NCBI GenBank assembly: GCA_000310025.1
Contig: FN649744.1
Coordinates: forward strand, 1,600,830 to 1,649,021
DNA from: Ectocarpus siliculosus
Taxonomy: Eukaryota; Sar; Phaeophyceae; Ectocarpales; Ectocarpaceae
Length of the DNA stretch: 48,192 nucleotides
Direction of reading: 5' to 3'
The translations under genes and the position numbers were made by a program. The notes beneath the pieces were generated by a model, which saw nothing but the letters and a program-made list of their open reading frames with translations, searched no databases and was not told where the DNA came from. Below, piece after piece: positions 1,554 to 46,100 of the stretch (position 1 is the first letter of the stretch; every line of letters begins with the position of its first letter).

Positions 1554-4500
1554 GCCGACGACAGCGGCGGCGCGAAGGAGGCGGCGCCGCCGTCGGCGTC
1601 GGCGCTCCGGTCCGGGGCGGAACTGGCCATCTCCAAGGGGGAGCACGAGAAGGCGATCCGCCTCTTCTCGCAGGTCCGCGTGTGTCTTCAGAAAGCAATA
1701 GATGTCGTTTTTTTTTTTTCTTTTGTAGTGCAGCTGATGTTCGACAGGGGGCCGTCGTCCTCTTGTCCCGTGCTGAATGTTGGCGACCCGGTGGCAGACG
1801 GGTCCCTCCCCTGCCTCCTCGCTTTTTCGCCGACCACCAGAAGCGATTTCGTCGCTCGGCCTTCAGGTTTCAGCAATAGGTTGTACCCCCATTGACTCTA
1901 ACTATGGTCGTGGCCGCCCAGAAGCAACTACCGCTGTGTTGACACTTGCAATGGTTGCCGCAACGTGTTCCTGGGCATACCGCTGTCCCCGTCGTTCCAT
2001 GCTTCGGCATATCTCCACGAAAACCCCATATACATTTCCCAGTACCTGCCCGTGGCAATATATGCCTTGACGAGCGCAACCCGCCCGGGTTGTCGTCCAT
2101 GGAACCCGGGCTCGAGCCTTGCACGTTTTGCCTGCTCCCCTATAGAGCAGTTCAGCAGGAGTCTCCAGCTCTTGGCTGCTGTAACCTTGGCACCAAGTAC
2201 GAGAACCTTTTCCGAACCCCCCCCCCCCTACGTTCCCGGGTGGGTGTCATGGTGTGCAGGTGATCGAGCTAGAGCCGAAGAACGAGCGGAACTTCTACAA
2301 GCGCTTCCGCGTGTTCCTATCGAAACGCAAGTACGCCGAGGCCATCCAGGACCTTTCCCGGGCGCTAGAGCTCAAGCCCAAGTACAAGCAGGTGTGTGTC
2401 CGAGTTTTGGGGCGCGCGCTACGATATTGCATGTATTTCGCCTCCGGTGTGTGTGCGCCCGTGTTTGCACGCATACCGAAAGTCTTAGGAACATCGGCTG
2501 CGGCAGGAGGTATGTTGGGTTTTTGGGCATGTTTGTGTGACGCGGGTGTTCTACCTCGCTTCGCTTGGGGAGAGGTTGCACCTGCCTGACCCTGCTTGTT
2601 TCTACTCTCCGCACCCCCCTCCCCCCGTACTGCTGTACTGCCCCGTACTGCACTATTTGCTCACGTAGGTTTCTTGCAATCAGATGTGTTTTGCCCCTCT
2701 TCGTGTTAACTTCCTGCCCACCTCTACATCACCGCTTTTTGATACAACGAGTAGTTTTTGGCTTTTTCTCGCATTGTACTTGGAAGCATGTATGTCATAA
2801 CTCCGTCCCTCTGCCCCCCCTCCGCCGCAAAAACAAAAAACATCCGACACGACGAAATAACGCAGGCGTTGGCCCAGCGCGCGAAGCTGCTTCGCATGAT
2901 GGGTCACTGCGAGGAAGCCGCCAAGGACTACGCCGCCCTCGAGGTGATCGACCCCAAGCACGCCGACCTCGAAACCCTCTACCCCCTGGCGATCACCTGC
3001 GCGCAGCGCTTGGCTGAGGGGGGCGCCGCGGAAGCGCAGAAGAACTGGGAGGTAGGTGCAGTACTAAAAAACGATGGATATGAAGAAAAGGACGGATGTA
3101 TGCTGCTCGGGAACCGTAAAAATAGTGGTCACCAATACTAAAACTAATTGCTACTATAATACCACGGGCTCTTATCTACGGAAGAGATGGATTTGTTGTG
3201 TTCTTTGTAAGAACAATCAACAGGGCAGGTGTTCTTCGGTTCATAGGACGAGAGAGCCGCCCCGGCTCGAATCATGATTCCGAGTCCCTCCCTTTCCCCG
3301 TGCTCCGTCCTCTTGAGGACGCGCGGTCAATGGTCTGACCGCTAAGGCATGCAACACGGTAAGGAGTACCCCCCCCCCCCCCCCCGCTTTGTCGTGCTCG
3401 AACCCCAACGACACATGGCAGGCTGCCGCGGAAGCGTACGACGCCATCCTGGACGAGCAGCTTGACCTTGTCGGGGCGGAGCTCCTCATCCGGCGAGCCC
3501 GGTGCCACTTCGCGCTCGGGCGGTGGCTGCAGGCCGCGGCGGACGCGGGAAGGGCGGCGAAGGTGGCGGCGGAGGCAGACGACGACAAGGTGTGCAGGGG
3601 TTTTGATTGGTGCTAAGGCCAGGGCTTGGGGTCGTGTTTTGCAGGTTTGTGTAGGTGTGTTTGTTTTCATGTTTTCATTGTTAGCATCGACCGCGCGACC
3701 CCGCTGAAAAGGCGTTAGTCTCAGTGCGACCGAAAAAGAAAGTTCTTCTAAAGCGTGTGTGGGCGTCTTTGCCGATTAGTATCGAACCGCGCTAACCGGC
3801 TAACCAATGACAATACGTCTATTCTCAGTGCGTCTACATTAGGGAAATTCTTCTATCTGTGTGCGTCTTTTTCCGTGTGGGGCGTTTGTTTGCTTGGAAG
3901 AGAAAAGACTCGCGGCGTAGAGAAAGAGACGTAGAGTAGCGGTGGTGGCTAGAGCTTGTCAAGGAGGGGATTGCCCAGCGGGGTTGGGGTTACAGGTAGT
4001 GTGGGACTTCGCATCTTGCTGCACCTGCTATGTTTGCACGAACGCGCTAGGGGGGGGGTAGGTGTGTGTATAGCGTACGCTGCTCTGCCACCCGTGTGAG
4101 CATGTAGTCTCCTCGTTGGTGGGTACGCAGGAAGTAGAGTATTGTGCGGGGGGCTACTCTGCTGCTGCCGTAGCGTTGGGGCAGTATTGTTGTCGACGTC
4201 GTCGAGATGGCGAGCGATTGCCGTGGGCGTAGTGGTTTGCCTTTTCACTCGTGCCTGCTGCCGCACGTGTGTTGTGCTTGTGTTCTCATCTCATGAAGTT
4301 GACCTGCTTGGAGGGATCATGCGAATGGGTACGCACGTACCTACAGCTCTGACTCGATGCGGTATATTCGTGTGTCGAACTAGGCGGCAAGAGAGCGGGC
4401 GGAGGCGTTGGAGCTGCGAGGGCGGTGCTACATTCAACTCGGGGACTACGAGCTAGCTGGCAACCACTTCCGACAGGTTAGCAGCATGACATTTCCAAGG

Positions 4501-7500
4501 ACATCGCCAAAAGATGCTGTTATGCTTTCAGCTCGTCGTATCTGCACTGCAGCAACCAGCCATGTGAAGGAACCCACGGGGCGTAGAGCTTCCTGCTGAG
4601 CATCAGTCAGTCTCGTGGCTTATGGGGAGGCCGGCACCGTGTCGGTTTTCTGTGTTGATTCTGCTTGCATCGATTTTTCGTTCTGCTTGGACTGATCTGT
4701 CTCTTCGGCAGGCGTCACGTCCTTTTGACAAAAGCTGACTGACGTCTTTTTTCGCAGACGCTATTTACCTCTTTGATCAAAGCCTTAATTCTGTGTGACC
4801 GACACGGATTTAAGCTCCTACTGCCAGGGTAAAGTTCTGTGAGCGCTGACTTACACAGTGATGAACCAAAACAAAATTGAACGTGTCTTCTTCGTCCTTG
4901 TCCCCCCGCGAAACAGGTCCTTCTCGACGACCCCGACAACGGTCCTTGCCGCGAGCAGCACCGGCGTTGTCGCGCCGTGGTGAAGAAGGTGGAGGCCGGC
5001 GCCGAGCTGCTTAGCAGCGGCGACGTCGCCGGCGCGACGGAGGCGTGGAGGGCCGCGACGGCGCTGGAGCCGGACAATCCGGCGTTGTTGGGGCCGTTGC
5101 TGTTGAGGGTGAGAGGGGTCGGGGAGCGGGAGGGAGAGGGAGAGGGAGAGGGCGAGGGCGAAAGAGAGAGACACAGGGAGACAGACAGACAAGAGAGACA
5201 GAGACAGAGACAGAGACAGAGGGAGTATGACGAGATTTATGCATAGTTTTGGAACAGGTTATCGGTTACGATGAGGTTCTTCTCGACACAAGGACAGGAC
5301 GCCTCTCTGGATACCGCAGCAAGTAGTGAGCACTGCGTGTAGGCGAAAAAAAAGCAACAACCAAGAGCAGGTGTAGGGTCAAGGTGTGAGAAATCGGCTG
5401 TGTATTTCTAGGGTGGTCGGCGTATGTGTGTGTGTGTGCGTCGTCGTTGGTTCTGGTTATGGTTCTGGTTCGTGCTGAATGGTACCGGGTGCCTAGCGTG
5501 GCAGGCAGGTAAGCGTTCCAGAGTGTCACCGTCTCTCCCTGCACCCTCCCCTGTGCTATTCTCCCCATGTGCTATACTGTGAGGCTATCATGCATGAAGG
5601 TGTGGGTTGTGGCTTGCCATTCTGTTCTACTTTCATGCAGGCAACCCTTTAGTTGCATACACTGCTGTGTCGTGGATATTGTATGCACTAACTACGGTTG
5701 ACGACGTTTGTGTCTGTTTGGGGTTGTCGTCGTTGTCCGGCTGTTGGCACGGATGCCACACAGATTGCTTCGGCGCATCTCGGCGCGAAGGACTGGGCCG
5801 AGACCAAGAGGGCCGCGCAGGAGTGCCTCAACACACACCCCGATGGAGAGGTGAGAAACACAGAGCGATATATGGAGAGAGGGATACCTGGAAAGAAAGA
5901 GAGAAAGGCAGGGGTAGAGAGACCGAGGGCAAAGAGATAGAGAAAAGCGGCAGGCACGACCCACAAGACGCAAGATGGGAATCGCCATGTGCTTCCGCGA
6001 ACCACGAACAGCGCCTTTCAGCATTCGTCTGCTGTCTGCTGTAGTTGGTGTGGGTGGTGTATACCTTCGCCACAGCTGCCACAGTGCTGCGTCGATACCG
6101 CCATCCGTTTATCCTCGTCACACGATGCTACAATCTTCTTTCGTTTGTTTGTTTTGTCCGGTCGCCCTTACCTTAGCATCTTCTTTTGCTGTGGTGTTCA
6201 CGTCTTTCGCCGTGTTTTGTTTGTTCAACCATCTCCCCTAGCTGTGTTGCTACAATCTTCTTTCGTTTGTTTGTTTAGTCCGGTCGCCCTTACCTTAGCA
6301 TCTTCATTTGCTGTGTTGTTCACTTCTTTCGCCGTCCGTGTGTCACTTGTGGGCTTCTTTTGTTCCGAACCCTGAAAAAAGGTTGGGGCTCAGGCGGAGA
6401 TCGTGATGGGAGATGTCCACCAGGAGGCTGAGGAGTTCCAAGAGGCGGTGAACGCCTACGCCAGAGCGGAGACCAAGGTCAAGGAGATCGGCATGGAGGT
6501 CTTGGACCAGGCTAGAGCGAAGCTCAAGCAGGCCAACATCTTGCTGGAGCAGAGCAAGAAGAAGCAGTACTACAAGGTGCGCCCACGCGGGTGGTATTTT
6601 GCGGATCGCTGGTTGGTGGGGAAACCTTTGGAGGCGTGTTTTGTAGGGGCCATGGGTACACGATTGGAAGAGTACTGTTTTGCGGTAGGGTACACGATGG
6701 GAAACACAATGTTGTGCGGTAGGAAAAGGGGCCCAGTGAGGGGGAAGTTGGACGGGGAGGGGGGACGGCGGCCTCCATGACGGTTACGGCTGATTTTCCG
6801 CGACTTCTCGCGTTATTAGTACTTGCGTTACTGGACAGTGGGAATGGAAACAGCCGCGTCATGTTCTTTGAACTGTTTTTTTATGCTGAGCTCTCCTTGC
6901 CCGCGGCCTGACGGTGCAGCTAGTTTCAAGTCGTTCCTCTTCCCAAACTCGATCTACCTTCAGGTAGTTTGCCCGTAACCGCTATCACCACCACCAACAC
7001 TACCACCACCACCACCACGTCCGCCCTCACAAGCAGCTGGTTTGATCAATTAGTTTGCTTATATCCATTCTTGCGTGCGACGGCGTCTGTCTGTGCGATA
7101 CCAGGTTCTTGGGGTCCCACGAAATGCCGACCTGGCTCAGATCAAGAAGGTGCGTCATGGCGTCATCCGTTCGTCCTTTGTGAACGCCTCGACCTTGTTT
7201 AGTGTCCGTACGTGCACATGGTGGCTCTCGGTCTAGATGATGAACACTGGTTATGCTTGTTTCGTCGGCGTACTGTAGCGCTTTCCTCTTGGTGTTTTCT
7301 AGCGTGTTCCGTGGGCTCGATCGGCTATCAACGTTCGGTCTGGACACGCACGTCAACTCTGCTGACGCAGCTCTTTTGCGCTTTTTCACAGGCGAGGTTT
7401 TGGTTGTGTATCTCCTTTTTTAATCAAAACCTGTTATATCGCGTGAGGACGACGTTCAACTCGCATTTCGCACGCGCACCTACATGTCGAAAATACCCAG

Positions 7501-8939
7501 CTTGGGCCGACAGGAGACGAGAAAACCTGCCGCCCCCCAACAACAATCTGTGAATACAAGTGAAGAAAACCATGCTCTCGGTTTTACGATGCATCCCGTT
7601 GGCGTTTCGCATTTTTCTTTTCTTTTTTACAATTATTTTTCTTGCAGTAACACAACGATTCACAGCAACTAGGGTGTTTCCAAGTTTGGGTGTGCTGGGG
7701 GGTCTTGTGTGTGTGTGTGTTTTTTTTTTGGGGGGGGGGTTGGAGGACGTGTCATCTCTACTAACAGATAAGGTGTGTTTGAGATGTATATCCCGGAACA
7801 TTTGCTCCCTCGTCGCCAGGCATATCGAGACCTGGCCAAGATCCACCACCCGGACAAGGTGCAGGGAGAAGAGGAAAAGCTAAAGTCGGAGAAGATTTTC
7901 CAGGAGGTTGCCGAGGCGTACGAGGTGCTGGGAGACGAGGAGCTCCGCGGAAAGTGAGATTCGATTGGGGGTTACTCATGGCCGTGCAGCCGTAGTCGTT
8001 GGAGCATTGACCTTACATTCCTACAAAGCCGGGCCGGAGCACGCCAGGTTTTCACCGGACTAGGCTAGCACATCACCAAGCGCGAAGCGCCGCGAGTTGC
8101 TGGGGGGGGGGTAGGTTGAGCGAGGGAGCCGGGGTTGATATCAATAAACTTCCCTGGTCGTTGTAGCGTTTAGCCGTGTATCCTATGTAGGACCCTGATG
8201 TTCTCTGCAAAGCCAGCAAAGAAGGATATGGACTTCGCCTGCTCAAGAGAAGAAACAAAACATGTTTTCGGATTTCCGTGGGCTCGAAAAGGTGGGAAAC
8301 AACACGGCCCGAAAGCGTTTGCCACACTGCTGTTGGGTTGGGTGGGGTCACATCGTGGAGGCAAGAAGTCACAATAGGAACTCGTGGGTTGCTAGCATGG
8401 TAGCAAGACCTCGAATCTGAAAACCCTCACGTTTCCGTACCTTGGTACAACCCCTCCGGCTGGTGTTGCCCCTCACCCCTCCCCCACCCGCTGTTTGAGT
8501 CTTGTCGGATTCTAGCCGTGCATTCTCGGTTGTGTGTGCGTTTGCATCGAACGCAACCCAGCACCTGACACACTCTTGTACCTCGTTTGAGTTGGATCTC
8601 CGGCAATAGGCTTGCATTTCTGTGTCCGTCAATAACATGCATAGCTCGGCGTTACAGGGCCACGCGGCACCTACCGCACATCAGTACTACTGTGTCCCGT
8701 TTTTCACGCGAAAACGCGAATCAATCACGTGGAAAGTAATGTCCATATTTTTGACCCCTCTTTTTTTTTCCCCCAAATTTGGTTTTCTTCCCGTGGGTGT
8801 TTTCAGGTACGACCGAGGAGAAGAGGTGTTCGACAACCAGGGAGGTGGCGGGGGGCAACGCAGAGGCGGTCAGCAGTTCCACTTCAACCACGGGGGCGGG
8901 AGGCAACACTTCCAGCGCACGCACGTCCGTTTCGGCTGA
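1554..8939 (+). CDS. DnaJ co-chaperone with TPR array, DNAJC3/P58IPK type (5' partial)
   Basis: This is an ER-lumenal Hsp40 that binds unfolded protein through TPRs and stimulates BiP through its J domain. Exons: 1554-1673, 2260-2391, 2866-3051, 3422-3589, 4384-4476, 4917-5108, 5764-5850, 6382-6576 (or from 6394), 7105-7149, 7820-7953, 8807-8939. All junctions are GT-AG and keep frame; only the last intron is not phase 0. The joined protein is about 490 residues against roughly 500 in animals, lacking only the signal peptide. TPR helices fill exons 1-8 (for example SGAELAISKGEHEKAI and LELRGRCYIQLGDYELA). The J domain starts at QYYKVLGVPRNADL, carries HHPD in exon 10 and ends YDRGEEVF. The G-rich tail contains QFHFN, like the FHFN end of animal DNAJC3. 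The start codon is not identified. Confidence 0.93.
3300..3385 (+). repeat. Dispersed C-tract repeat, copy 1 (in DNAJC3-like intron 3)
   Basis: This shares with copies at 36470-36662 and 43283-43563 a core that, in gene sense, reads CTCCGTCCTC, a short GAGG hairpin, GACGCG(T/C)GGTCAATG, then AAGGCATGC and AGTAC, and ends in a C-run (17 C at 3369-3385). The C-run ends 36 nt before the AG of exon 4 at 3421. Only the 3' core is shared; the upstream sequence differs from the other copies. Size and dispersal suggest a SINE, but no convincing pol III A/B boxes can be assigned. Confidence 0.7.
5109..5230 (+). repeat. GA-rich low-complexity tract at a donor site
   Basis: Runs of GAGGGA and GAGACA follow immediately after the 5' splice site of DNAJC3-like exon 6. 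The tract is intronic and purine-only over much of its length. Otherwise unremarkable. Confidence 0.7.
6127..6345 (+). repeat. Two-copy tandem repeat, period 122 bp, intron 7
   Basis: Two adjacent units begin GCTACAATCTTCTTTCG at 6127 and 6249 and are about 90% identical over most of the period. The block sits in the DNAJC3-like intron just upstream of the acceptor for exon 8 and is T/C-rich in the sense strand. It looks like a recent local duplication. Confidence 0.85.
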
Positions 8940-10536: not shown

Positions 10537-10538
10537 TA

Positions 10539-12942: not shown

Positions 12943-12954
12943 TAGGCGCTTATT

Positions 12955-19681: not shown

Positions 19682-19719
19682 ATACATACATACAATACAT
19701 ACATGTATGTATGTATGTG
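19682..19719. repeat. ACAT/ATGT microsatellite palindrome
   Basis: Repeats of ACAT on one side mirror ATGT repeats on the other (ACATACATACATGTATGTATG at the centre), giving a perfect hairpin core. A second AT palindrome (ATATTATT...AATAATAT) lies at about 19815-19840. Confidence 0.75.
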
Positions 19720-24144: not shown

Positions 24145-26831
24145 TCACCTGACGCTCATGTGCCCCCCGCAGAGCATCTTCCCGGCGGCGCCGCCGCGGC
24201 CACCGGCGCCGCCGTCGGAGGACGACTTGGACGGGGGCGCGAACACGTCCCAGAACCGCAGGGTCTCGTCGCCGGCGCCGGACACCACGGTGCGCCCGTC
24301 GGGGGACGCCGCCATGTGGAGCACGCGGGAGGTGTGCCCGGAGAGCTCCTTCGTCTTGACCATGGACGGGTACTTCCACAGGCAGAGCTGGTTCTCGGCG
24401 TAGCCGTGGCTGGAGAGCAGCTCCTTCTCGGTGGTGGACCAGAGAAGGGAGAGCACCTGGCTGCCGGTGTCGACCGAGTTGAGCAGCGCGCCGGTCTGGG
24501 CGTTCCACGTCTTGATGCAGCGGTCGGCGGTGCCCCCGCCCGTGGCCAGAGTGTTGCGCTCGAACGGGCACCACGCGAGCGCCTTGACGGCCGCCTGGTG
24601 CTCCGTCAGGGTGAAGCGCGGCGCCGCCGTGGAGAAGCGGCCCGTCCCGACCGAGGCGTCCCACAGGCAGCAGGTGTTGTCGTTGCTGCCGGAGGCGAGG
24701 GTGCTGCCGTCCGGGGACCAGCTCAGGCCGCAGACCTGCAGGGTGGGGAGGGGGGGGGGGGAGGGGGGGCGCGGGCAGAGGTTTTATTGAGTTGAAACTA
24801 GAGTATCGGAGGTTGGGATGCATGCATCATTTACGCTTGTAGGGATTATTTAATTTTTGGTGGCAGCGCCTAGTTAGTTAGATAAAAAGTGACTACGGGA
24901 AAAGATAAAAATGTCTTCGCGTTGAACAGCAGCAAGCAAGAGGGGTTGTGCTAGAGACAGGCATGAACGGATAAAAAGAGAATCATGTCTTGGGAGGGAA
25001 GTCATGTCATGGGGGGGAAGTCATGCGAACAGCCCGTCACCAACACCTACAACCACAAAAACGATGCCCTGGTCAACCGGCTCGTGTGGTAGACAAGGGC
25101 TCGTGTGTGCAAGCTTTTTTTTGCTCCATTTGTCATGGTGCACGATGAACCAACTTCACTTTACACTAAGGCAAATCCGGCCCTCCACACACACGACAAA
25201 CAAAAGGCGCTACTGCAAAATATGAAGCGCACACTTTTGTAAAACGAAGGAGAATGTATAACGCGCTTCTGCTGTGATGCTTCCATCTCATGAATACCTG
25301 CTACACTACAGCAAGCGCGCTGCACACCTACACCGCATCCACCAACAACAACACCGATGCCTAGGTCAACCGGGTCGTGTCGTGTGACAAAGGTTTTTGT
25401 GTCCTTGTTTTTTTGTGCGGTATGTGAGTAGCAATCACGATAAACCAATCCGTTCACCAGTCAAGTCCGGCCCTTGACACACAGGAAAAAAATGCGCCAA
25501 GAGGTGTGTATTATAACGCACACGTAAAACAACATCGGGAAAAAATAGCTTGCTGCTGCTGTGATATGCATACATACTTCCGTCTCTTTAATACTACATT
25601 TCAGGACGCGAGCTGCACGCGTGGCTGTTCGGCACAACAGTGTTTCGAGGTTTAAGTGAGAAACAAGAAATTTGAAACGGCAAAGGCACCGGACCAAAAA
25701 ACACGCGGCGGAGGCGGACCCACGCAACACAACGAAAGTACTCAAAAGATACATATATCAGTACAAGCGACTCGTATATTCTACGCCTTTCTCTCTCTCT
25801 CTCACCTCCTGTGTGTGCCCTCGTAGCGTGCCGACCGCGTGCCGCTGCATTCGGAGGTCGTGGTGCACCGCCGTGGTGTCGCGGGAGCCCGAGGTGAGGA
25901 CGTGCTCGTTCCACGCGAGGGCTCCGACGCGCGCGCTGTGGCCGTTCATGCTGCGGAGCATGGTGACGGTGGACGAGTCCCAGAACTGAGTCTCGCCGCC
26001 CGCGGTGCCCACCGCGAGGTGGGTGCCGCTGGCCGTCCACGACACCGAGGAGACGTAGTCCTGCTCCCCCTCCAGGCTGCAGAGCTCGGTGATGTCGCCG
26101 CTCTTGGCGTTCCAGAGGTAGACGCACTGGCCCAGGGCCACCGCGAGGACGTCGTTGGAGCCCCAGGAGAGCAGGTTCAGGTAGTAGTCGTCGAGGAGGT
26201 CGGGCGCGTCGAGGATGCGGACGGGGGCGGAGGGGATGTGGCGCGTGGGGCGGGCGGAGCCGGAGGAGGAGGAGCGGGAGGAGCCCTTGTTCTGGCTGTA
26301 GAGGACGCGGAGCCCGTTCTGGTAGCCCTCCTCCTGCGCGGGAGCCTTGTTGCGGAAGGCGAGCACGCGGTGGCCGGGGGCCGAGGCGGCGGCGGGCGGG
26401 TGGCCGAGAAGGTTGGACTCCAGCACCTTCTGAAACTCGCCGCTGTTGCCGCCGTCGACGGCCGCAGCGGTGGATCCAGCGCCGCCGGGAGCCGTGTTCT
26501 CCCCGCCGTCGTTCTCCTTGCTCATGAGGTAGTTGGACCTGCTCATGCACATGGAGGAGCGGCTGGGGATGAAGCGGTCCCGTCTCTCGCCGCCCGCTGG
26601 CGCCGCGATTCCCTGGGCGGAAGACGTCGATGAAGATGACGAGGACGAAGCAGAGCAGGTAGAGGCGTCCGCGGCGTCCTTGAGCTGCTGCTGGGCCTGC
26701 TGCTGCTGTTGCTGCTGCTGCTGCTGGAGCTGCTTGCGCTGCCACCGCGGCAGGACCGAGGTGCTGAGCGGGGCGTCAAAGGACATGGATGCCTCGAAGT
26801 CGGCGATTTCGCTTGCGCGGGTAGCTGCCAT
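24145..26831 (-). CDS. CDC20/Fizzy, APC/C activator (WD40)
   Basis: This is the mitotic co-activator that recruits substrates to the anaphase-promoting complex and is the target of the spindle checkpoint. Two exons: 25806-26831 (342 codons) and 24145-24735 (197 codons with stop), joined in phase 0 across a 1.07-kb intron, give 538 residues. Visible: poly-Q at 34-49, C-box DRFIPSR at 85-91, KEN at 105-107, then [12 protein letters not shown] and [20 protein letters not shown] leading into seven WD40 blades ([68 protein letters not shown]). GYQN-VLYSQ and [11 protein letters not shown] place it with CDC20 rather than Cdh1. The C-terminus reads HMSVR, a -VR where APC/C activators usually have -IR. 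The TGA stop overlaps a strong donor (AG|GTGAGT at 24148-24149), so an extra 3' exon is possible. Confidence 0.95.
26680..26735 (-). repeat. CAG/CAA repeat encoding poly-Q in CDC20
   Basis: CTG/TTG triplets on the + strand encode 15 Q in a 16-residue span near the CDC20 N-terminus, upstream of the C-box. Length variation here would stay in frame. Confidence 0.85.
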
Positions 26832-27174: not shown

Positions 27175-30100
27175 ATGGAGCGTGACAGACCACTGAAAGG
27201 AAAGGGTGGAGGGAAGAGAGGTAAAGGTAGAGGCGGCGGCGGCGGCCGCGGCAGGGGCGGTAGGCCAAAGTCGTCACAAGGTAGGGGTCACGGCCACCGA
27301 CATCATGCTCAAGGCGACAGCTGGCGGAGGAACGGAGGAGCAGCACGGGAGATGATCGATCGCGAGAGGGACGAGTCGGGGGAATTGGCCCAGTCCATCA
27401 CTGTCAGCCTTCGCATGTGGGACTTCGAGCAGTGTGACGTGAAGAAGTGCACGGGTCGCAAGCTTTGCCGGCTCGGTGAGAACAGCGGCGGCACAACGGT
27501 GGCATATACAGCAAGCAGTACATGTACAAGTACGCGTAGTGCTGTTTACATATCATAAGTGTGGTTTTGGAGGTCATGGATGGTCTTGTTCTTCCCGCCA
27601 GCAACTGCTTGCTACGGCGGCGTGATCGTATGGTGTAGCGCCTATGGTGCTGGCACAGCAGTAGTTATTGATGTCCATGCAGAGGCCTCACCTTCGTCAC
27701 GAACCCGCTGTGCATTTTGAATTATACTAGGACTGCTGTTCAGAGACCGACCAAGTCGATTGCCGAGGCGCACCACACCACCACCTCCAGTACGGGAAGA
27801 CCCCACAGCAATCCAGTTACTGCTGTAGTCTAAATAGAGGCAGAGTAGACTACAGCAGTATTTAGTGCTGTGTGACGACTGCTGCCAAGGCCCTCTTGTA
27901 AATGCCGTATATGGTGCGGACGTTTTTGCCTGTGTGTTGTCGTGCCCTTCACAGAAATATCGGGCGCTAGAGAGTTCGTTTGAACCGTCAGCGGGTCTAC
28001 ACGCCCGGCGAGCTGTCTAGCTGCTGTACGTAGCGATGCAGGAGGAACTGGTGTGTGTAGACCCCCTCATGTGTACACGAACAGGTGGCGGAAGCGCGTG
28101 CTCTGTAGAGTCAAAGCAGCGTATAACTCTGCCGAGCAACCGTGACGCGTTATCCCAACCATGCGTTACCCACCTGCTGTGGTTCTCACACTCTTGCTAA
28201 CGCTTGCTGACTCGCCCCCCCCCCCGTTCCCAGGACTCGTCCGGGAAATGGAGCTTGGCGCGCCGTTCTCGGGACTGGTGCTCAGCCCCAACGGCGAACT
28301 AACGGTGTCGCCCGCCGACAGGGTAAGCTCGGGGAGGGGGGAGGGGGGGTGGGGGCGGAATGTATTTGACGATCAAGCAGGTGTTGTGTACTCCGTAGCA
28401 GTCAATGTCTGGCCTACTTGCCGTGCAGAAGGGCGCGCTCTGCGCGTGGGACACACTCGCAACGCCTTGTAACCCTTGTGTGCTCTCGACCTTTGTAGCA
28501 CCGTAGAACCTTTGTCCCTCGTGGAGCCGGAACTACGATTATTGAGTAGCAGCAGGCTTGAGGACGTTTTCCATGTCACTGAATTCCAGGCAACGCCAAT
28601 CCGTTCCCATATCTTGGTGATGTTTTGCAACGTTTGTGCCCTGGGTGTCGCCGAACGTACACACTTACTACCACGGTGCTTTAGTTCGTTCCGCTGATGC
28701 TTCCCACGTAGACGCCTCTCTTGCTTGATCTTGCGCATTGATGATGCTTGTGGTTGCTTTCCGTCTGTTTCGCCCCCGCACCTCCCTAGCTTCGCTACAT
28801 TCTTGTAGGTATCTTCCTATCTTCGTTGCCACTGTGAATGTCGTCGCCCTCACTGTTGCCCCCCCCCCCCAACGCCCCTGTCCCTCACCCTCACATGTAA
28901 TCCCCCTCTCGCGACCCGCCACAGGAGGTCGTCGAGACTCTGGGCATGTCGGTGATAGACTGCTCGTGGGCCCGACTCGACGAGATACCTTTCCACCAGG
29001 TACGTGTCGCCCGCAAGAGACACCAGTAGGTAGTCGTGGCTTCGTGTCCGCCCCTGCTCCCGGCGGTGTGTTTAGCTGTATTGGTACCTACGCGTGCTGG
29101 GCCATCTGCCCCGCGGGGAACAGCAAGAGGGGTGCAGCCTTTACCTATACATTCCGCGATCATGACCATCGTCTCTCGGAGGGATCGGGTGCCCTGCATC
29201 CCCCCCCTCCATTCCCGACATGTATCATCCGTCCAGATGACGGTAGCGTTCGTTCATCTCAACGATATGGATACCTACGCTCCAGTGTGCTGCTGCTTCT
29301 CCGTTCACGTCCAGCGATCTAGCGTGCGGCCTTCTGAACCGGAGTGCGAGCTGAAGAACAAATCGCTTCGCTCGAGAACACAGCAGCAGTAGAGTAGCGA
29401 GCGTAAAATGCGGAGGATTTTGCAGGTCGTGTGTGGTCTCTTCTCTCTTTCGTTGTTCCTCGTCCGAATTTCTTCGCTCGCGTTCTTGCTGCTCCGACCT
29501 TGCCTTCAGATGCGGAGAGGCCACCACCGGCTGCTTCCTTTCCTCGTCGCGGCAAACCCGGTCAACTACGGGAAACCCATGAAGCTCACGTGCGCGGAGG
29601 CAATAGCGGCCACTCTGTACATCGTGGGGCACCAGGTATGGTGGGAACTTGTTTGCTCATTCATGAACTCTGGGATCGTGACTTGTTGTGTTTTTTTTGT
29701 TTTGAATTGAACCGGACTGGAAGACCAATCGCAATCGTATCCCTTGGCCGAAGGTGATGCGGTGACGTACTGCTGCCATGATTGGCCTACGTTTTCGCGT
29801 CCTTGTTGCACGGTTGGGCGTCCTCTCGACGTGCGGAGACATACGTCAGTTGGTGCCTGGCATACTTTGCCAAATGGAAGAAAAGACGATGACGGTCAGA
29901 ACGCAATGTGCAAGATGAGATGAGGACATACCAGAACACACACGAGACTATGAGATATTGAGCACGGTTATTCTAGATTGCACGATTTAGGCGAGCACGG
30001 CAGAAGGAAAGTGCGGACACCTTGAGAAACCCTTTCTCGTGTGTGACCCAGGCTGGCGCGTGCAAAACCCGTACCGAATAGGTGGAACAATAGACGTCCT

Positions 30101-32603: not shown

Positions 32604-35311
32604 CCACGACCGCTAGCCGGTAGTGGGTGATAGAGATGTAGGTCGCGAAAATCTCATGTACCAATCGTGGTCCTCTTCAGAGTGAACCAAGCGTAAGAAG
32701 AAGCAAAGCACCTCGGTGGCTGAAGAGTGCTGCGATGTGATCGGTACTCATGTAGATGTCGGATGGCTTGGGGATTTTCGGAGATTGCACTTGTTGTTGT
32801 ACATAGTGGGGTCTTGAAGGGTGTTTTCGAGCGTGTAATTCTCTTGTTTTGGTTTTTCTGTAGTGGCCTGGCAATGATAGCGAACAAATTGGATTGTGGA
32901 CTTTTTCTTGGGGGGGGACTCCGCTGTTCGTTCTTGATGAATGGAAAGACGCCAGTCTTACCTAGCCAACATGACACACATCCGCGGGGTCCCCGACGCG
33001 GGCTTGCGTACTGTGTTTCTTCGTCTGATGCGGGTGTGTGCTCTGTTAGCACTCGAACGGTCTCAGTCACGACCCAAGAAGTGGAGGTACCCTTGCCTGC
33101 CTTTCTCTTGTTTTTCACCACAATCAGTCTTCACCTCTCGACCCAACCCACACACAAATCGAACGGAGGGCAGCAAGACAGCAATACGCGACCACCAGGG
33201 ACGGGGCCCTGCAGTCTCTATCTCACCCATACCCAAACAGGACAGAGGCCCCGCAGAACATATCTAGATCGAGTACACCAAACACCCCCAGCTCTCGGTG
33301 GAGATATGATCTCAGAAACTCCCCACATTAGAAATTGCCTGGTAAAACGGCATTGTCATCCTTCCAAGTAGTCCTTCAACACGAGTCAACATATCTTCGG
33401 TTTAAGCTTTACCTATCGTGAATACCCAAGAAGACCTCAATTAATGCACCCTCTCGAGAAGGTGTCCTGGTAGTACTCATTGTACCAACGATGGCATCTC
33501 TCTCGACCATGCTTGAACGAATACACATCATTCTCTCGAGTCGCTGAAACACAAAATATCCTCATGCATAGAAACTACCAAGAACACCGTCATTCGAAAC
33601 AGCGTATCATCAAAACGTCATTACGAACTCCATCCAGTTCTGAATCCGAACGAACCAAAACTCATCGATAGTCTCCTAGAACACAAATCTTTCCACCGAT
33701 AACATTGACCAAATCCCACAAAGTTTCGGAAACACGGACGCTTCAAACATGCCCTATCAGAATATGCCCATTTCCTTCCTCCGAAAAACAAATCCAACCC
33801 AACCATATCCAAGATCACCAGAACAATGCTACGGCAATACCTTCGGGAGTATCCCAACGAAGAAGGGGAAACTATAGTGGGACAAACCTCACACAACACT
33901 TTACTAGTAGTGCCGTCGTAACAGCCCCCCCGGCGCAACATTCTCTTCCACTCATACCCCGAAAGGTGGAAACTGGCGCCCAGAATAACGCACACTGAAA
34001 GTATCCTTCCCCAGTGAACCACGATACGATTTACCTTCACCATAGGACCAAGTACGGGGTACGTACATACTGCATGAATGCGCCCACTTTTTTTACCTAT
34101 TCTGCGCTCTTCTTACCGTCCAACAACAACCAGGGCTGAATCGCCCTACCTATTGGCTTGTCGTAGCCAAGCGTGATTATTTTGCCTTTGCCATCCGAAC
34201 TTGTGTCAACCTCGCCCAGGTTCTCCCTCTATCGTACGATCTTGCTCCTCAAGCTGAATAAAACTCCAACCCTAGGTGGCACGAAATGCATCCTCCACGA
34301 CGCCTACTTCTCTTCATTTTCCAATCGCGAGAAGGGTTGAGCAGTACCTTCCCTGGAGTGCACTAAAGACAAGCACTTCCAAAATGCGGAAAGAAAACCC
34401 TTCCCTAAGCCCTCCCCATAGTCAAATCACCCTCGCCCCAAAACTAGTCTGCAACACGTATGCATCCCTTCATATATCTCAAACAACCCCCCCCCCCCTC
34501 TTTGTCCTGGCGTTGTAGGGGCGCAAGGTCAATGGTTCAACGACTACTACGGCATGCGTTTACCCCCACCCCCCCCTCCTCTGTCGGCCTTGATCGCGCG
34601 AACACGTCAGACTACTCTTGGTTGTGGGTTCTTCCCCAGCCCTCTCTCGCCCTGGCACTGCCTTTGACGCCCCGACGAGTTGTGAAACTGACATCGAAAT
34701 ACGTGGAGTCCACCCTTCCTTGCGAGTTTCTTCCTTGTGAGTTTGTACTTCTAAGGCGGGACGTCCCTCGTCCCGTCCCACTTGAAACTACTGTAGTGTA
34801 ACTCACGACCCTCCCCTCCCCAATAAAAAATCTTCCAACTTTGACGATTACTTTGCTAGGCTACCCTGTCGAGCTATCTAGCTACCAGGGAAGCCCGAGA
34901 GATAGTCACGACATTTCAATAGTTAAACCTCCTACTGTAGTACGCGTACAATCCGACGGCAAGAAACGAAAAGGGATTAGACTACTTGATTTGGCTGATC
35001 CGAAATCCAACGGTGATGATCTCTCGCACAAAGCACGCTTTGTTGTGCTTAGTCGATGGATTATAGTATCAGAGCAGGCGTGAGGCCAACGGGTAGTTCG
35101 TCAGGTCGCTTGGCCCCGGTGCCTCCCGCAGAACGAACGGGCGAACAACGCATGTTGAATCAGCAAGAAAAGGCCGAGCAGAGAGAAGGGCGGGTCATCA
35201 CTGCCCTATCGGTCACAGACTGACAGGTACAGGGCAGTGGTGAACTGTCGTTCCTCTCTGCTCGGCTTTCGCGGCTGCCAATCCTTGTCGCCATGCGTGT
35301 CGCGCGTTGGT
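32604..35311. other. Convergent spacer between TSR3 and the SYNW-family gene
   Basis: Presumed 3' UTRs and intergenic DNA. Frames of 214 (+, 32727-33371) and 140 (-, 33621-34043) codons show no domain. A weak, degenerate fourth copy of the C-tract repeat may lie at 34525-34577 (GGTCAATGGTT...GGCATGCG followed by C-runs). Nothing else can be supported. Confidence 0.5.
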
Positions 35312-38300
35312 TCAGAAGGGAGAAACGGCCCCATCCGCGGCAGTGGCAAGCCTGATGCGGATGCACCTGCTGTCGCGGCCGGGCGAGTACTCGACGACCA
35401 CGGCAGCGGCGGCGGCGACACGGGGGTTTGATTCGCCGTGTGTTCCCGTCCCGCCACGACCACCGCCGGCAGCGGACGGCGTAGCAGGCGCAGCCGGGCG
35501 CGCGGGTGTAGTAGAGGCGGCACCGATTATGCGGTGCGCCGCCTTGGTGATACCGCGCAGGGTGTTCGCCAGGAACACCATGGACGCCGAGCCGGACTCT
35601 TCCGCGCGAGCCTTGACCTGGTGCACGGACAGTCGTACACAACAATAGCAGAACATATTTAGATGCGACGGCTCGTACATACTTGTACACGATGACGTGG
35701 TTGTCTGCACGCTATGGTGGGTCAGCTCTTGCAAAAAGTTTCGTTCTGTTTGCTCGGTCGTCAATAATGGTATGCTTTTCCGGGAGAAGATCATCGTTGA
35801 TCCTCAAGCACAGTGGTCACCGTTGATCCCCAAGCACGGTGTCAATGCTTGAAATAAATGCTCTAAGAACACAATAGTCTCCTAGTGGAGGTTATCGATT
35901 CGCGCCGTTCCCCCTTGTTGTCGGGCACATCTGCTCACAAGTCACTGCAAAACATAACACCGGTCCTGATGCGTTCACCATGGCGCAAAAACAGGCTTGG
36001 CATTTACGGGTGGAATATCGCAAAGGAAAGGGAACGGGCCAAGTGGGAGAGGGCATCGACGCCACACCACGCCGGACGCGACAACTCTATCTCGAATCCA
36101 AATACGAAACAACCGAAACGGCGTCACATTGAAGGGCGTTCGGTGCTTGCTTTCTCAACAAGAAATGTTGGCACGGCGGCATGCTTATAGACCAAGAAAA
36201 AAAAAAACGTTACTACACCTGAGGCGCGTCATGTGTGTTCTCGTTGAAGGCATTTTTCGTAGGGTTGTCCCATACCTCGCCGATGGAATGGTGCTTCGTG
36301 TCCCCGGCACCAAAGGTCCCGCGGTTGTGCAGGCCGAGGACCAGCGCGTGAGCGCCGCCCAGGGTCAGCTGCCAGTATATGTCCTTCCAGCTGATCTCAT
36401 TGGCGTACCTTCGGGGCGGCATGCATGGGGTTGAAAGGGTGAGTACGCGCGGTGAGAGAAAAACTTCGGTGGGGGGGAGCGTACTCTTATGTTTTGCATG
36501 CCTTGGCGGTTAGGTCATTGACCACGCGTCCTCGAGAGGACGGAGCATCGTTCCCACAGGACCGATCACCGATGGCCAATCGTTCCTTCCTTATAAGCGG
36601 ATCAAAAATGTTTTCCCCCGTCTATTTTTTCCGATCGATGCCACTTCCCGTCTTTTCAACCCTCTGGTATTCTCAAAACACAAATGATGACCAGCCTTGT
36701 TTCTGCAATAGCGGTGTTGGTTGCTGAAATAGCCCAGGTTTTCTGCCCCAACGAGCCTCGGTCAAGCCGTGCAGCCTGTGCTTCCCAGGCATACAGATTT
36801 GTCCCCAGAAACCACGTTTCATGTCGTTGTTTAGAAGCACGAAGAAGACGACGCATCATACCTTGAGTTTTTGGTCTTGAGCTCCAACACCTTGGCGTCA
36901 TGTCCGAGAAGCTGCCCCCTCTTTTCGCACGTCAGGCCAGAGGCCGGCTTCGACTTGAACGGCAGCGTGCATGCCCGCGAGGGGAGGGGAGAGGGGAGGC
37001 GAACAAACAAGGAAAACAGGAAATTACTTATGTTGTGGTGCGCGTGGTTGTGTTATTTAGCGGCGAGGCTACGCTTGTCTGTAGGCCTTTTTTAAGTGCT
37101 TCGACGGAGAAAGTTAAAACACAATCGCCGCTGCGATTCGAGGCCGAAGGAGAACTGGCGCCGATATTGTGTAAATGGCAAAAATACGCTGCTTGCTTCT
37201 ATGGGATTGACTCCCCCCCCAATGTGTGGTACTCGAATCGAAACAATATATGAGACCTGTTAAGTAAGCCAGGACGCTCCCTGTTCGTCTCAATCTTGTT
37301 TTTCATTTTCTTTTGTAAGACAACAGCAAACAATCACGAATAAATCCGTCGGCCCACCTCACTCTTGCCTTCTCCTCCCGGCGAGGAAGAAGAGAGCCCC
37401 AGGCCACCGAGCTGTTCAACCAGCAGGTCTTCCGTACTCTTGGCGGCAGCCTTGGCTGAGGTACTTGCACCACCACCACCACCACCACCACCGGAAGATG
37501 AGGCGCGTCCCTTCCCCGCAGGAACAAGCCTGGTGGAACCAGTCCCGTCGCAGGCGTCCACCTCAGAGCGCACGAGCAGCGCCATTCCATCCATGTTCAT
37601 CTGGGGAGGGCTACACACGCAACGGGGAAGGGCGCGTTCGATGAAAAATCTGCGTACAAACGAGGACAACTCTACAGCAGTCAGGAACGTGCGCAAATCT
37701 TCGGTCGCGTGTTGCTCAGCTTTCATCAGAGAAACGGACTAAACAGAACACTTGCGTGCAAGGAAGGTGGGGGAACAAGCTTGACCCCAACTTCACCAGC
37801 GAGAGGGATATCAGAAGAGGGAAAAAAATACCGCTGTGAAGACAAAGACTTCATTACCTCCCCTCTGAGCAATATCTCGAACGAGAAGTTGTCTGTGATG
37901 CTCTAGATGTACAATCGATCTACGATTAGAGGGGACAAGCGATACGTAATGTTCTGACAACACTCAATTCAACTAGCCTAATTTTTCTCCATCGTGTTTT
38001 ATGTGCGTCGGTGCCGTATGTAGTCATCCAGAATATTTCGACATCATGGTGCAAACGTTGCGGAAGGCTTGCTCTACGAACGATGGGCAGGTACGTAGGT
38101 ACAGTAGTTCTCGACCTTCGTGACGACGCGAAACGTCCCGGCGTCCCAGGGAGCATGCGGATCCTTCTCGGTGAGCTTTTTCTCGAAGTTGTGGCCGTAC
38201 CCGTTAATGTTGTGATGGCCTACCGTCGCCCGGGTGAAGACCAGGGTCGGGTCGCCGTGTCCGTTGCTGTCGCCAATGGAGTGGATTATGAACTTGAAGT

Positions 38301-39120
38301 CCTGATTGCCAAATTCGTTGGCCGTGGTGCTATGGAATTATACGACAAGTTGCCGAGCGGCAAGAAGCGGGGGGAGCGCCAACTTTTTCCAAAATTATTG
38401 CTCATCAGGAGCCTTTCAACGTGCATGAAAAAAAATAAAATGCGCACTTGCTTGCGCGGAGTGCCCGCTGACTCCGATGCCCCAGTAAATTGTGCTTTCT
38501 ATCCCCAAAGCTTGTACAAGGGGCCAAGAGCATAGCAGTGGATAAAATACAAACGAACCCCGAGTAGTAGCAGATCAAGCGAGCCACGACACGCACATGA
38601 CAGAACTGTTAACATCAAAAAAAAAATCCGCACCCCCCCCACCCGCTAGCTAACCTCTTGACGTACAGAAAAGGAACGCTACCGGGGTTGCGCGGTATGC
38701 GCCGCGTGGTTGACCCAACACAACTCACGTGTCCCCGGGGCTGCGGCAGAACCTGAGCAGGCTCCTCAGGTTGTGGCGATCCGTCACGATGTCGACCGTG
38801 CTGATGTCGAAATCGGGGGAGCAGATGTCGAGGGAGCGAAACAGCGGCTCGGCACTGCTGAATGGTTTCATCCGCGCCCGGTTTTCGTCGACAAATGAAC
38901 CTCCGCCGTCCTTCCCCAAGACGAACCCGTGACGGCTCATGCGGCTGACATAATTACGCGGCGCGCCAGGGACGATGATGCGAGGGTGCCCCTCTCTCGA
39001 CCTCGTGCTCCAATTGTAGGAGGCTACCACCTCGGTGCCCGTGGGGAGCACGTTGCGGTGGCCAGTCTGCAGATAGATACGATCATACGAAGATCTGAGG
39101 TTGGATGGCACCACACACAT
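35312..39120 (-). CDS. SYNW/DIVTDR-family protein (labelled 'GGPP synthetase' in fungi), function unknown
   Basis: Exons in transcript order: 39120-38729 (or from an acceptor at 39066), 38329-38095, 37600-37358, 36953-36862, 36408-36276, 35617-35312. Phases 2,0,0,2,0 all join correctly, giving about 466 residues. Landmarks: VVASYNWSTRS, HPRIIVPGAP, FVDENRARMKPF, FDISTVDIVTDRHNLRSLL, LVFTRA, NGYGHNFEKKLTEKD, MNMDGMALLVRSEVDACD, KVLELKTKNSRYANEISWKD, IYWQLTLGGAHALVLGLHNR, then VVVEYSPG near the end. These match, in order, the conserved blocks I recall from fungal proteins named geranylgeranyl pyrophosphate synthetase. None of the prenyl-synthase aspartate motifs (DDxxD) is visible in the joined protein, so that name is not supported. 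A poly-G stretch sits in exon 3. The start is uncertain: the ATG at 39120 is in frame, but CTGCAG at 39067 is a good acceptor. Confidence 0.78.
36470..36662 (-). repeat. Dispersed C-tract repeat, copy 2 (intron 4 of the SYNW-family gene)
   Basis: In gene sense it reads GGAAAACATTTTTGATCC, GGAAGGAACGA, GGTGATCGGTCCTGTGGGAA, CTCCGTCCTC, GGTCAATGACCTAACC, AAGGCATGC, GAGTACGCTCCCCCCC. It is collinear with copy 3 over the whole length. The C-run lies about 60 nt upstream of the acceptor at 36409-36410. Confidence 0.82.
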
Positions 39121-39783
39121 TTTGCTGTGTTACAAACATTGCTGACTTGTTGTAAGTGGTATATTATGTTCTAATACTGTACATAGGTGTAAGATTTGTC
39201 TGTTGGCGATAGAGCTGGTGGTGCAGACTGAAAAAATTGTTGTTGATATATCGAGTACGACATCTGTCTGCCTCGTGCGCATAGACTACATACAGCAGTG
39301 CTCTACGAACGACCAGGTAGACCAGGTACAACACTTCATGCTACATCTTCTGGTCAAGGCGGGCTGCGGGTTGGGGAGGAGAGGGACGACACACATATTG
39401 ATCATACAATGAAGAGCAGACGGACCGACGGTGGTGCCAGCCTGGTCGATTGACTGGATTCGAAGTGTTTTCCGTTTCGTAAAACAGCTTGTTGTTTGGT
39501 TGGTTGGCACGGCTATAGACTAACTATACTGTGGTGTTCATGTGACCTGGTGATGTGCATGATCCGCTCAAGGCACGTAGCACAATTTACGGCAGTGATC
39601 CGTACGTCTTGCACGAGTTCAAGGTGATGCCGACACTCTCAACAAAATAAAGCTGGCTGTGATCTGTAAATCTGTGGTACGAGGATCTAACTGCCTGCTC
39701 ACGTATGCATGCTCTACGTCGAGTGTGCAGACTATATGCCTGCTCCCTGTTTACACACACACACCTGAACATCACGAGCGCGA

Positions 39784-40014
39784 ATGAGTTCTTCAGTCAT
39801 GGGCGATATCGGGGGCATTTACTGGCGAGAACCGGCAAATATTGCTGTGTGGCCGACGGGGGGGGGGGAAGCGCTCTCTTGTATGTATGTGTGTCACGGC
39901 GCGATCTTCCTCTCTGCGGACCACCCGACAAACATGATGCTGCGGTACCCCTCTTTCGGCGATAAGATGGGCTATTGGACTGGATGGACCAACCACGCGT
40001 CGACGGCAGACTAG
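39784..40014 (+). CDS. Short hypothetical ORF, Trp/Gly-rich
   Basis: A 76-codon frame (MSSSVMGDIGGIYWREPANI, then HGAIFLSADHP and GDKMGYWTGWTNHAS) whose composition (four W, mixed polar residues) is more protein-like than its surroundings. A TTCTTCAG acceptor-like site precedes MGDIGG at 39799, so it could be an internal or last exon. A run of 10 G in the middle encodes GGG. No family recognised and no neighbouring exon found. Confidence 0.25.
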   Translation: MSSSVMGDIGGIYWREPANIAVWPTGGGEALSCMYVCHGAIFLSADHPTNMMLRYPSFGDKMGYWTGWTNHASTAD

Positions 40015-43107
<3,093 letters not shown>

Positions 43108-46100
43108 TCACTTCCCGAAAAGCAGCCGTCCGAGAACCAGCGCCGTGACGGGGACGCTGATGTTGTCGTCCCCTACCAACCGTGGCGGAAACAGCTCCAC
43201 CGCCGCGCTGGCGAACGATATCGCCGCCGCTCTCGCCGCCGCCTCCGTCGGCGTAACCTAGAGGTGAAGGTTGTAGGGGTGAGGGGGGGGGGGGGGGAGG
43301 CGGCGGGGGAGCATACTCATGTTTTGCATGCCTGAGCTGTTGGGTCATCGACCACGCGTCCTTGAGGGGGGCGTACTCATGTTTTGGCATGCCTTAACGG
43401 TAAGTTCATTGACCACGCGTCCTCGAGAGGACGGAGGATTGTTCCCACAGGACCGATCACCGACGGCCCGTCGTTCCTTCCGACTTTGCCTCAGACTAAG
43501 ACGTGGCTCAAAAATATTTTCCCTAGCCTGTCTCGATATCACTTCACCGCCGTTTCACCCCAACGCCCCAGTACAGGTAACGTATTTTCCTGCCTAGGGG
43601 GAGGCGGGGGGCAAACTCGCACAGAACACAACACCAATGAACATCGGATTGAGACCATGTGCACGCGGGTCCTTGAGAGAGAAATGCGCCCGCTGTCTGT
43701 CCTGTTGCTGCTCTACACCTGTCGGTAACAAAGTGCACGCTGGGAATCCCCCACCGCTACTCGAAATCCGTTGCTGTTTTCTGTTTCAAACGGGGGAAAA
43801 AACGAACCTTGATGTTTCACGAAAACGGAGTCGTCCATCGATTCTCGATTCGGGCAACAACAACACACGAAAACATCGAAACAGATGGATGCAAGGAACC
43901 AAACATCAACCGACTGGCCACAAGTGTAACACAAAGTTATGTAGAAAAAACAAAGATAGACCAAAGTAATGAAGCAACGTTAACCCTTTTGAGTCTTCAG
44001 GCGTTCTCACTGATCATTGATTGATCATTTGCAAATGCTGGTGTAGTGGCAAGTCGTGGAGTTGCCGCCCTGCAGCCCTTCGCGCCGTGTATTGGCAAGT
44101 CCATAGGTAGGTGTGTCTAGATTATTAGCACCCGCACTAACCGGCTGACCAATGAAGAGACTTCAGTGACAGCGGGTAATATCAAGGTCTCGGGAATGGG
44201 AATGGGGCCAATCAAAATGCCAAATCATGAATCTCACAACGTATGCACATGTCAATGAACGCGTGTGTGCATACAGTACTACATACATACATATGTGTTC
44301 TTTCGCAGCACCACACATACACTCTCCCGAACGTAGGAAGCCACTGCTGCAAAGAGCAGAGGACAGCAAAAGGGAGGGGTATTGCAGTCCCTGCCGAAGC
44401 CCAGATATCGAGGATATCGTGTGGTTCCCAACAATTTGAAAATCGTTCCCAAGATCCAGCAGTCATTGTGTCAACAGCTACAACAACGAACGCTACAACA
44501 ACACTACTACTACTGCTGTAGACGAGTAAAACATATCAGCAACACATCCACACTCGTAGCGCCACACATACCACCCTCGCCCGAACCTAGGAAACCACGA
44601 GGTACAGGTGTGTGCTGGTGGATGTGCTTGTTGTTTGAAAAACACAGGAGCTCTAGAGAGTTGGCAGGGCACATTTCGGGGGGGGACAGAGAACAGAGAA
44701 GTACAGAAGTACAAATACCAGCTATGGGTCTTCACTGATCATTTTGCCCTCTCTGGACTGATCATTTACAATATACCGAAAATAGACTAGTTGAGGCAGC
44801 TAGACGACTGATCATTTCAAAGGCTACACAGCTAACCTGCCCTACTGACCGCAGCGCGACCACCCACCAACCCTTGTACGACCCTGTCTGTGGCCACCAC
44901 CCTGTCGCCGGCTTCTCTCATGGCCTACAGGTGGAGATAGCTGTTGCGTGTGCAGAAGTACACTGGTCTCTTTCTCTGCACTTCTCTCTCTCCCGCTCGC
45001 TCTCGCTCTCATTTTTTTTTTTGGCGCAAAAAAAAAAATCTGACAGTCCAGCCTAGACCCAAAGGGGTTAAAGTGCTCACCGACAAACAGCCCGAGCAAA
45101 AACACAACCAAGTCATGAAACAACAACAAAGGAAAACACTCACCGACAACAGCCCGAAGTGGTGGAACCACTGTATCATGGCCACGGACGCAAGGAACGA
45201 TCCCGAGACGAAAGCGGCCGAGCCCTCCATGCTCTTCTCGCCCCCCTTTCGCCACTTGTGCTTCCCGAACTGCCGCCCAACCAAGTCCGCCATCCCATCG
45301 CCGACCGCCATCTTGAACAATACGCATCAAACACCGAGCGTGTGAGTAGGGAGGGCACTCAGCTGAAAATCGTGCTTGCGGGGACAGATTGGGGTTACCT
45401 GTCGGCAATGTGTCTATGCGGTACCCGAATCCCGTAAGCCCGTCGTGTTACCGTTGGACATGGCAGCGTCTCACAAAACAGGGGGTCGTCATCCGGACTT
45501 CTCGGTAAGACGGCCGCGAGGCTGCTCCGTGGAGCAAAGGTCAAAACGCGGCGGCCTCTCTCATCTTCAGGAAGCAGCACCATATGCGTATATACTTCCG
45601 CTGGCGCATATGTACCTGCATCATCGCGATAAGCCCAACCACGGAAGTCCGCCACTCTACGACAGTGATGAGCACGATGGCCAGAGAGTACTTGAGCGGC
45701 CCATCCAGCGTCTCGGACGCCCTGCCCGTCCAAGCAGCGATAGGGTCGAGGTCAAACGCGCCATCGGCGACGGGTTCATGCCGAAACCCCCAGCCAACGC
45801 CGCCGTGGCAACCGTGGGTCACCCAAGAACCACTCCGTCCGCCCAACGTGGCACACACCGGAACAAGTGTAACACCAATGAAAAGAAGCAGGTTCGACTT
45901 ACAGTGGTTGGTGGTCAGGAATCCCGATTTTGGTCGGCCAGCGACAACTCTTGGTTGCGGCCACTAAATGTATACAAACAACAATACCCCCTTGACCCTG
46001 CGACATGGCGGACCAATACCACTGCAGTACAAGCATATGCGGAAGGGAAAAAGTGTTTTGAAGTCAGCCAGCAGTACATCGGTGACTCACTTTCCAGAGC

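Follow-up and report, generated by a model that had tools for sequence, protein, structure and literature searches.

Truncated retrotransposon tails and poly-C tracts before predicted 3' splice sites in Ectocarpus siliculosus

The window considered here, a stretch of 48,192 nucleotides of Ectocarpus siliculosus contig FN649744.1 (G000:C19:1600830-1649021, in a genome of 189 Mb and 492 contigs), contains several copies of a dispersed repeat corresponding to the 3' tail of a non-LTR (long terminal repeat) retrotransposon, or long interspersed element (LINE). An ab initio gene finder, self-trained on the window and on six arbitrary 10-kb stretches, L070-L075 (placed at round coordinates, not generated at random), and with an acceptor model spanning only positions -4 to +1, was used for the predictions. 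The three copies listed in the initial annotation are present, and all are sense-oriented in predicted introns: 3052-3421 (+), 36409-36861 (-) and 43258-44849 (-), of 370, 453 and 1592 nt, respectively. The distances from the C-run to the next exon, given at first as 36, 60 and 23 nt, become 36, 62 and 25 nt when measured to the predicted intron end. The copies had also been assigned to three different genes. All three are indeed in predicted introns, but copies 2 and 3 fall into one predicted gene, a single 19-exon model on the minus strand (35312-47982).

The gene hosting copy 1 encodes a TPR/DnaJ protein (Pfam DnaJ, 5.9e-20; TPR_2, 3.5e-19), and exon 3422-3589, immediately following the copy, carries on the TPR array. 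Hence this gene and its acceptor are secure. For copies 2 and 3, neither of two protein pieces compared with Pfam gave a significant match, and the acceptors downstream of these copies are predictions of the self-trained gene finder.

The region 43283-43563, initially described as one copy, consists of two tandem tails (43311-43369 and 43369-43591). The pair is flanked by the direct repeat GGGGGAGGCGG, which occurs in the window at these two sites only, with 0.02 occurrences expected. Two further relics with a related tail, absent from the initial annotation, were found in the window, one antisense in a predicted intron, with a C10 run on its 5' side (8102-8111), the other predicted to be intergenic. 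All these features, together with poly-C tracts in introns without a copy, are listed in the table.

Table. Retrotransposon tails, adjacent C-tracts and control C-tracts in the window
Feature	Coordinates	Strand	Evidence
5'-truncated LINE tail (copy 1), about 70 nt, sense in TPR/DnaJ gene intron	3301..3368	+	blastn 94% over 54 nt to LINE; matches other tails
C17 tract, 36 nt from intron end (exon 3422-3589)	3369..3385	+	spliced protein matches TPR, DnaJ in Pfam
5'-truncated LINE tail (copy 2), sense in predicted intron 36409-36861	36482..36665	-	84% identity over 191 nt to LINE
C7 tract (G7 on +), 62 nt from predicted intron end (exon 36276-36408)	36471..36477	-	
5'-truncated LINE tail (copy 3), first of tandem pair, predicted intron 43258-44849	43369..43591	-	79% identity over 229 nt to LINE
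Shorter tail, second of tandem pair, immediately downstream of copy 3	43311..43369	-	
Direct repeat GGGGGAGGCGG, probable target-site duplication, 3' side of tandem pair	43293..43303	.	
Direct repeat GGGGGAGGCGG, probable target-site duplication, 5' side of tandem pair	43597..43607	.	
C15 tract (G15 on +), 25 nt from predicted intron end (exon 43112-43257)	43283..43297	-	
Relic of SINE-like element (tail in common), antisense, predicted TPR/DnaJ gene intron	7967..8096	-	88% identity over 132 nt
Relic tail, C12 (34487-34498) on one side and C8 (34569-34576) on the other, predicted intergenic	34504..34557	+	83% identity over 54 nt
C12 tract 31 nt before predicted acceptor, intron without copy (control)	2217..2228	+	
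C12 tract 54 nt before predicted acceptor, intron without copy (control)	28859..28870	+	
C11 tract 8 nt before predicted acceptor, intron without copy (control)	28215..28225	+	
C12 and C7 tracts 14 and 27 nt before predicted acceptor, intron without copy (control)	24750..24769	-	

When the window copies are aligned with other places in the genome, the conserved sequence of the repeat runs upstream into an open reading frame. At one of these places, L069, the open stretch comprises 932 codons and contains a reverse transcriptase (Pfam RVT_1, 7.7e-34). Among named PDB entries, L1 and R2 proteins are the top matches of this frame, L1 ORF2p scoring best (92.3 bits) and R2 58.5 bits, and a CX1CX8HX4C-like stretch was noticed by eye near the C-terminus. 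In partial LINE copies the upstream region has GDFN and LDYILVD stretches that look, also by eye, like those of APE-type endonucleases; here the Pfam match to Exo_endo_phos_2 is weak (0.036, below the cut-off), and the other piece has no match. Among 57 copies the 5' ends are scattered from -1428 to -40 and the 3' end is constant, that is, 5' truncation is frequent. A query with the tail yielded 2119 candidates in the genome and one with the 5' part 111, which agrees with frequent truncation, although a strict comparison of the two numbers is precluded by the occurrence of the tail in other elements. There are 670 occurrences of an 18-mer from the tail, 340 on one strand and 330 on the other, and none of the control pattern. 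Thus the repeat consists of 5'-truncated tails of a LINE.

The same 3' end is found in a further tail type and in an element of about 530 bp with a recurrent 5' end and a T-rich stretch. The latter was seen at L008, L022, L033, L035, L065 and L067, and also at L070:7224-7506, L071:2201-2254, L071:8446-8896 and L075:8686-9244.

An origin of the three copies from a short interspersed element (SINE) or a tRNA was considered and rejected, since the copies align to the LINE and run into its reading frame; no tRNA (ARAGORN) and no Rfam match were found in the window. The suggestion of an intron-associated SINE is thus wrong for these copies, even though the tail does recur in a SINE-like element. 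Introners are intron-generating elements that form whole introns with the splice sites at their own ends. This candidate was rejected as well, as the copies make up only a part of their predicted introns and the splice sites are outside the element.

Ectocarpus has RTE-X LINEs and a very abundant non-autonomous element of about 600 bp, RTEX-N1_Ec32, sharing their 3' end, as described in passages of PMC12477816. The likeness covers the pairing of a LINE with a short abundant partner, 5' truncation and many intronic copies; the median intron there is 524 bp, as compared to 550 bp over the 85 introns predicted here. The element of about 530 bp resembles the description of RTEX-N1_Ec32. Judging from this published description, the family is probably the catalogued RTE-X/RTEX-N1 group of Ectocarpus. 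The main-text passages of PMC12477816 considered here contain no mention of poly-C targeting or of splice-site placement.

The flank analysis covered 68 copies at 62 distinct places, after removal of six true duplicates (L015, L031, L038, L039, L060, L061); in 57 copies the 5' boundary was within the sampled DNA. Runs of at least six Cs (C6+) are present in the 3' flank of 50 of these 57 copies and in the 5' flank of 41, as compared to 3.4% of 2351 random 46-mers, and G6+ in the 5' flank of one. The exact end of the tail leads straight into GCCCCCC in 211 of 326 cases. Among 15 copies picked by listing order, C5+ was present in the 40 nt examined in 13. Words of at least 12 nt with at least two non-C letters that are common to both junctions were found in nine of the 57 copies, whereas in 100 mispairings the same test yielded 0.64 on average and three at most. 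Such words, for example CCCCCCCCAGTC, CCCCCCCATTGTGAGCC and CCCCAAGCTTGACC, begin in the C-run. Together with the direct repeat around the tandem pair in the window, they amount to target-site duplications of variable length, as are typical of LINEs. Hence most copies have the same C target at both junctions, and the target specificity is partial, not strict. One of the initial suggestions, that the repeat inserts next to existing tracts, is supported by these data and may be made sharper: insertion takes place within poly-C tracts, and always with the same orientation.

An alternative is that the element RNA ends in a poly-C tail at its 3' end, or that such a tail is lengthened during reverse transcription, so that the insertion brings the C-tract and creates or strengthens 3' splice sites. 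The frequency of C-runs in the 3' flanks (50/57) agrees with this, as does the wide variation of C-run lengths among copies. However, the C-runs on the 5' side in 41/57 copies and those within both-junction words such as CCCCCCCCAGTC would not be expected, and C-runs at acceptors of copy-free introns, considered below, carry no tail. We regard this alternative as highly improbable. A few Cs (GCCC) are likely encoded by the element, but not the whole run. The same observations, namely C-runs on the 5' side of the copies and inside target duplications and the existence of tail-free acceptor C-runs, lend no support to the earlier idea that the repeat supplies the polypyrimidine tract.

Poly-C tracts near predicted acceptors were also considered in introns without the element. 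A screen of L070-L075 for tails revealed SINE-like ones in L070, L071 (two) and L075; the tail at L071:2201-2254 is in the sense orientation in a predicted intron, its C-run being 99 nt before the acceptor. The screened set comprised 65 tail-free predicted introns from the window and these six stretches, with acceptor exons of at least 45 nt. In these introns, 19 of 31 C7+ runs are situated within 80 nt of the AG, a zone accounting for 12.9% of the intron length (p = 3.9e-10), and the density of such runs is 3.53 per kb in this zone and 0.33 per kb elsewhere. The controls in the same zone are one of 11 for G7+ and two of 42 for T7+. At least one C7+ run within 80 nt of the acceptor was observed in 16 of the 65 introns.

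This enrichment is unlikely to have been produced by the gene finder. Apart from the short span of the acceptor model, only 2 of 29 C7+ runs are on the donor side (in introns unscreened for tails), and in the reversed sequence one of 21 is near a called acceptor, with seven of 21 near a called donor; an artefact was thus rejected. G-runs near donors, as an antisense counterpart, were rejected too (1/15). Nor are the acceptor C-runs old tails: one of 19 has a GTAC-like end upstream, and none has a BLAST match to the LINE or SINE tails. When all tail-free C7+ runs are considered (70 runs, after 13 runs near tails were dropped), an exon follows within 120 nt in the sense orientation in 16 cases and in the antisense orientation in two; for C10+ runs the numbers are 11 and zero out of 24. 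At 4326 random positions they are 196 and 203.

The C-tract target, the fixed orientation, the junction words and the truncation are all shown by the data: the LINE integrates such that the element with its tail ending in GAGTACGCCC is followed by the C-tract of the target. For the mechanism, the following model may be suggested. The endonuclease would nick the bottom strand in its G-run, and the 3' end released there, terminating in Gs, would pair with the terminal Cs of the RNA and prime reverse transcription. Given that sense-strand poly-C clusters in the last 80 nt before predicted acceptors, targeting in a fixed orientation would occasionally bring the element, in the sense orientation, to a place just before an exon. 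As the target is duplicated, an insertion would leave a C-tract next to the acceptor and so have only mild effects. We find it very probable that the C-tract is a host target, pre-existing in most cases and fixing the orientation of the element, and, jointly with this, that the pattern of the three copies results incidentally from the choice of target, in a window rich in genes, rather than from a splicing function of the repeat.

In LINE-1, priming involves an A-tract and a T-tract. The element described here is similar to LINE-1 in its 5' truncation and target duplications, and L1 ORF2p is among its best PDB matches; pairing through a homopolymer would, according to our model, be a further likeness. 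The difference is that the homopolymer is C/G and not A/T, and the inspected 3' junctions end in C-runs and not in poly-A. Rather few LINEs are known to choose simple sequence as a target, and the choice of a C homopolymer would be a useful case for the endonuclease and pairing of the RNA end together setting the target. Microsatellite-specific non-LTR retrotransposons are known, for instance Togen, found in (TG)n, according to the passages of PMC4640811 used here. Such elements share with the present one a simple-repeat target in a fixed orientation. On the other hand, the LINEs treated in those passages encode a restriction-like endonuclease, whereas the upstream frame here is weakly APE-like; moreover, the target here is a C homopolymer, and the specificity is partial.

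The presence of a C homopolymer upstream of 16 of the 65 element-free predicted acceptors, with T7+ not enriched, points to a possible 3' splice signal made of Cs; as far as the predicted introns can tell, C-rich signals may take the place of U-rich ones at the 3' splice sites of the host. C-rich polypyrimidine tracts at some mammalian cassette exons are bound by PCBP/alphaCP and can act as a splicing signal, as described in PMC4797308. These tracts characterise a subset of mammalian cassette exons, whereas here C7+ runs are seen in about a quarter of the predicted acceptor regions. The findings also call for caution, as an association between a repeat and splice sites can arise from a common sequence preference and not from function.

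To see how copies are placed in the genome as a whole, we considered the 68 copies of the flank analysis. Removal of 11 copies with repeats downstream and eight with Ns or too little sequence left 49, and omission of the window copy L001, an 18-nt match (L025 at 282) and L025 itself, whose flanks are those of L020, left 46. To these, 14 readable ones of 15 small loci were added (the first 16 listed places of the 18-mer less L010, judged without a score cut-off), making 60 informative copies outside the window. The gene finder was noisy on the 1.5-kb flanks: at a score of at least 5 it called 0.69 exons per kb in real DNA and 0.27 in reversed DNA.

A sense exon lies within 120 nt of five of the 46 copies (L028, L048 and L050 with a predicted acceptor edge, L021 and L035 without one) and an antisense exon within the same distance of three, while the small loci add one sense (L080) and one antisense case (L088). 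The total is six sense, four antisense (L010, L027, L045, L088) and 50 copies without an exon within 120 nt; no strand bias is detectable in the ratio of 6:4 (p = 0.75). The four antisense copies, together with the relic at 7967-8096 in the window, speak against the view that the repeat is tolerated only in sense near acceptors. A lack of genome-wide bias, or a mostly intergenic location, had been set beforehand as evidence against a link with acceptors, and this is largely what the sample contains, as far as ab initio gene calls can show. Thus acceptor-proximal sense placement does not appear to be a general rule; a modest enrichment is possible, a strong one unlikely.

Two other explanations should be weighed against this tally. 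The first is selection rather than targeting: insertions would occur at C-runs everywhere, and those in introns would survive mainly in the sense orientation near acceptors, others damaging splicing. All three clear window copies are in the sense orientation and close to an acceptor, as compared to 16 of 70 tail-free C7+ runs, which is what selection would produce. However, the genome-wide sample, with its six sense and four antisense cases among 60, is unbiased, and the tail-free C-runs are themselves sense-biased (16:2), so that selection seems improbable as the cause. The second is chance, that is, three tails happened to be situated before exons in one gene-rich window of 48 kb. The 50 of 60 sampled copies with no exon nearby fit this explanation, and so do the two related relics in the window, which break the pattern. 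Still, C-targeting combined with acceptor-enriched C-tracts (16/70 for C7+ and 11/24 for C10+ against 196/4326 for random positions) raises the prior for such a placement, and chance by itself, although it deserves consideration, is somewhat unlikely.

Finally, there is a scenario in which the LINE lineage and its SINE use intronic polypyrimidine tracts as a safe haven, with the C-tract duplicated, splicing unbroken and transcription in the sense direction, and in which the poly-C 3' splice signals of the host and the target choice of the element have shaped each other. We consider it rather unlikely.

Several observations weigh against target choice as the explanation of the pattern. Of 326 exact tails, 115 (35%) have no GCCCCCC directly after them, hence the poly-C rule is not absolute, or it decays with age. 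The long junction words come from nine copies only, and C-runs make duplications hard to delimit. In at least eight of the 57 copies the C-run in the 5' flank belongs to an older tail, L020 and L025, having both flanks in common, may be one insertion, and the 5' flank of copy 2 in the window (36482-36665) has no C-run. In terms of placement, the fraction of copies at sense exons, 6/60, tends to be lower than that of tail-free C-tracts, 16/70 (p = 0.06), and is not clearly above that of random positions (p = 0.056); these frequencies indicate that C-targeting alone may not set the distribution. Lastly, the gene calls are ab initio and include many false positives.

Head-to-tail stacks, in which copies in the same orientation are each situated on the C-run of an older tail, occur in at least eight of the 57 cases, e.g. 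L004, L006, L013, L032, L035, L044, L047 and L048, and also in the window at 43311-43591. Such stacking would follow naturally if old copies offered their C-runs as targets for new insertions. Runs of Ns, either assembly gaps or stretches withheld from the sequence, begin at the C-tract or soon after it in L003, L005, L006, L007, L008, L013, L037, L055, L067 and L079, and thus the C-run lengths are uncertain; homopolymers are, moreover, prone to error.

Some other features of the window were noted in passing. The predicted gene at 13318-26831 (-) joins, as judged by eye, Cdc20/Fizzy-like WD40 repeats with ankyrin repeats, and could be two genes. Another dispersed repeat of about 160 nt is present at 16028-16190 and, inverted and 84% alike, at 47405-47625, with a second inverted pair nearby; a sequence resembling it follows a tail at L064. 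There is also a local direct duplication of 88 nt, 6126-6213 and 6248-6335, the two parts being 95% identical and 122 nt apart.

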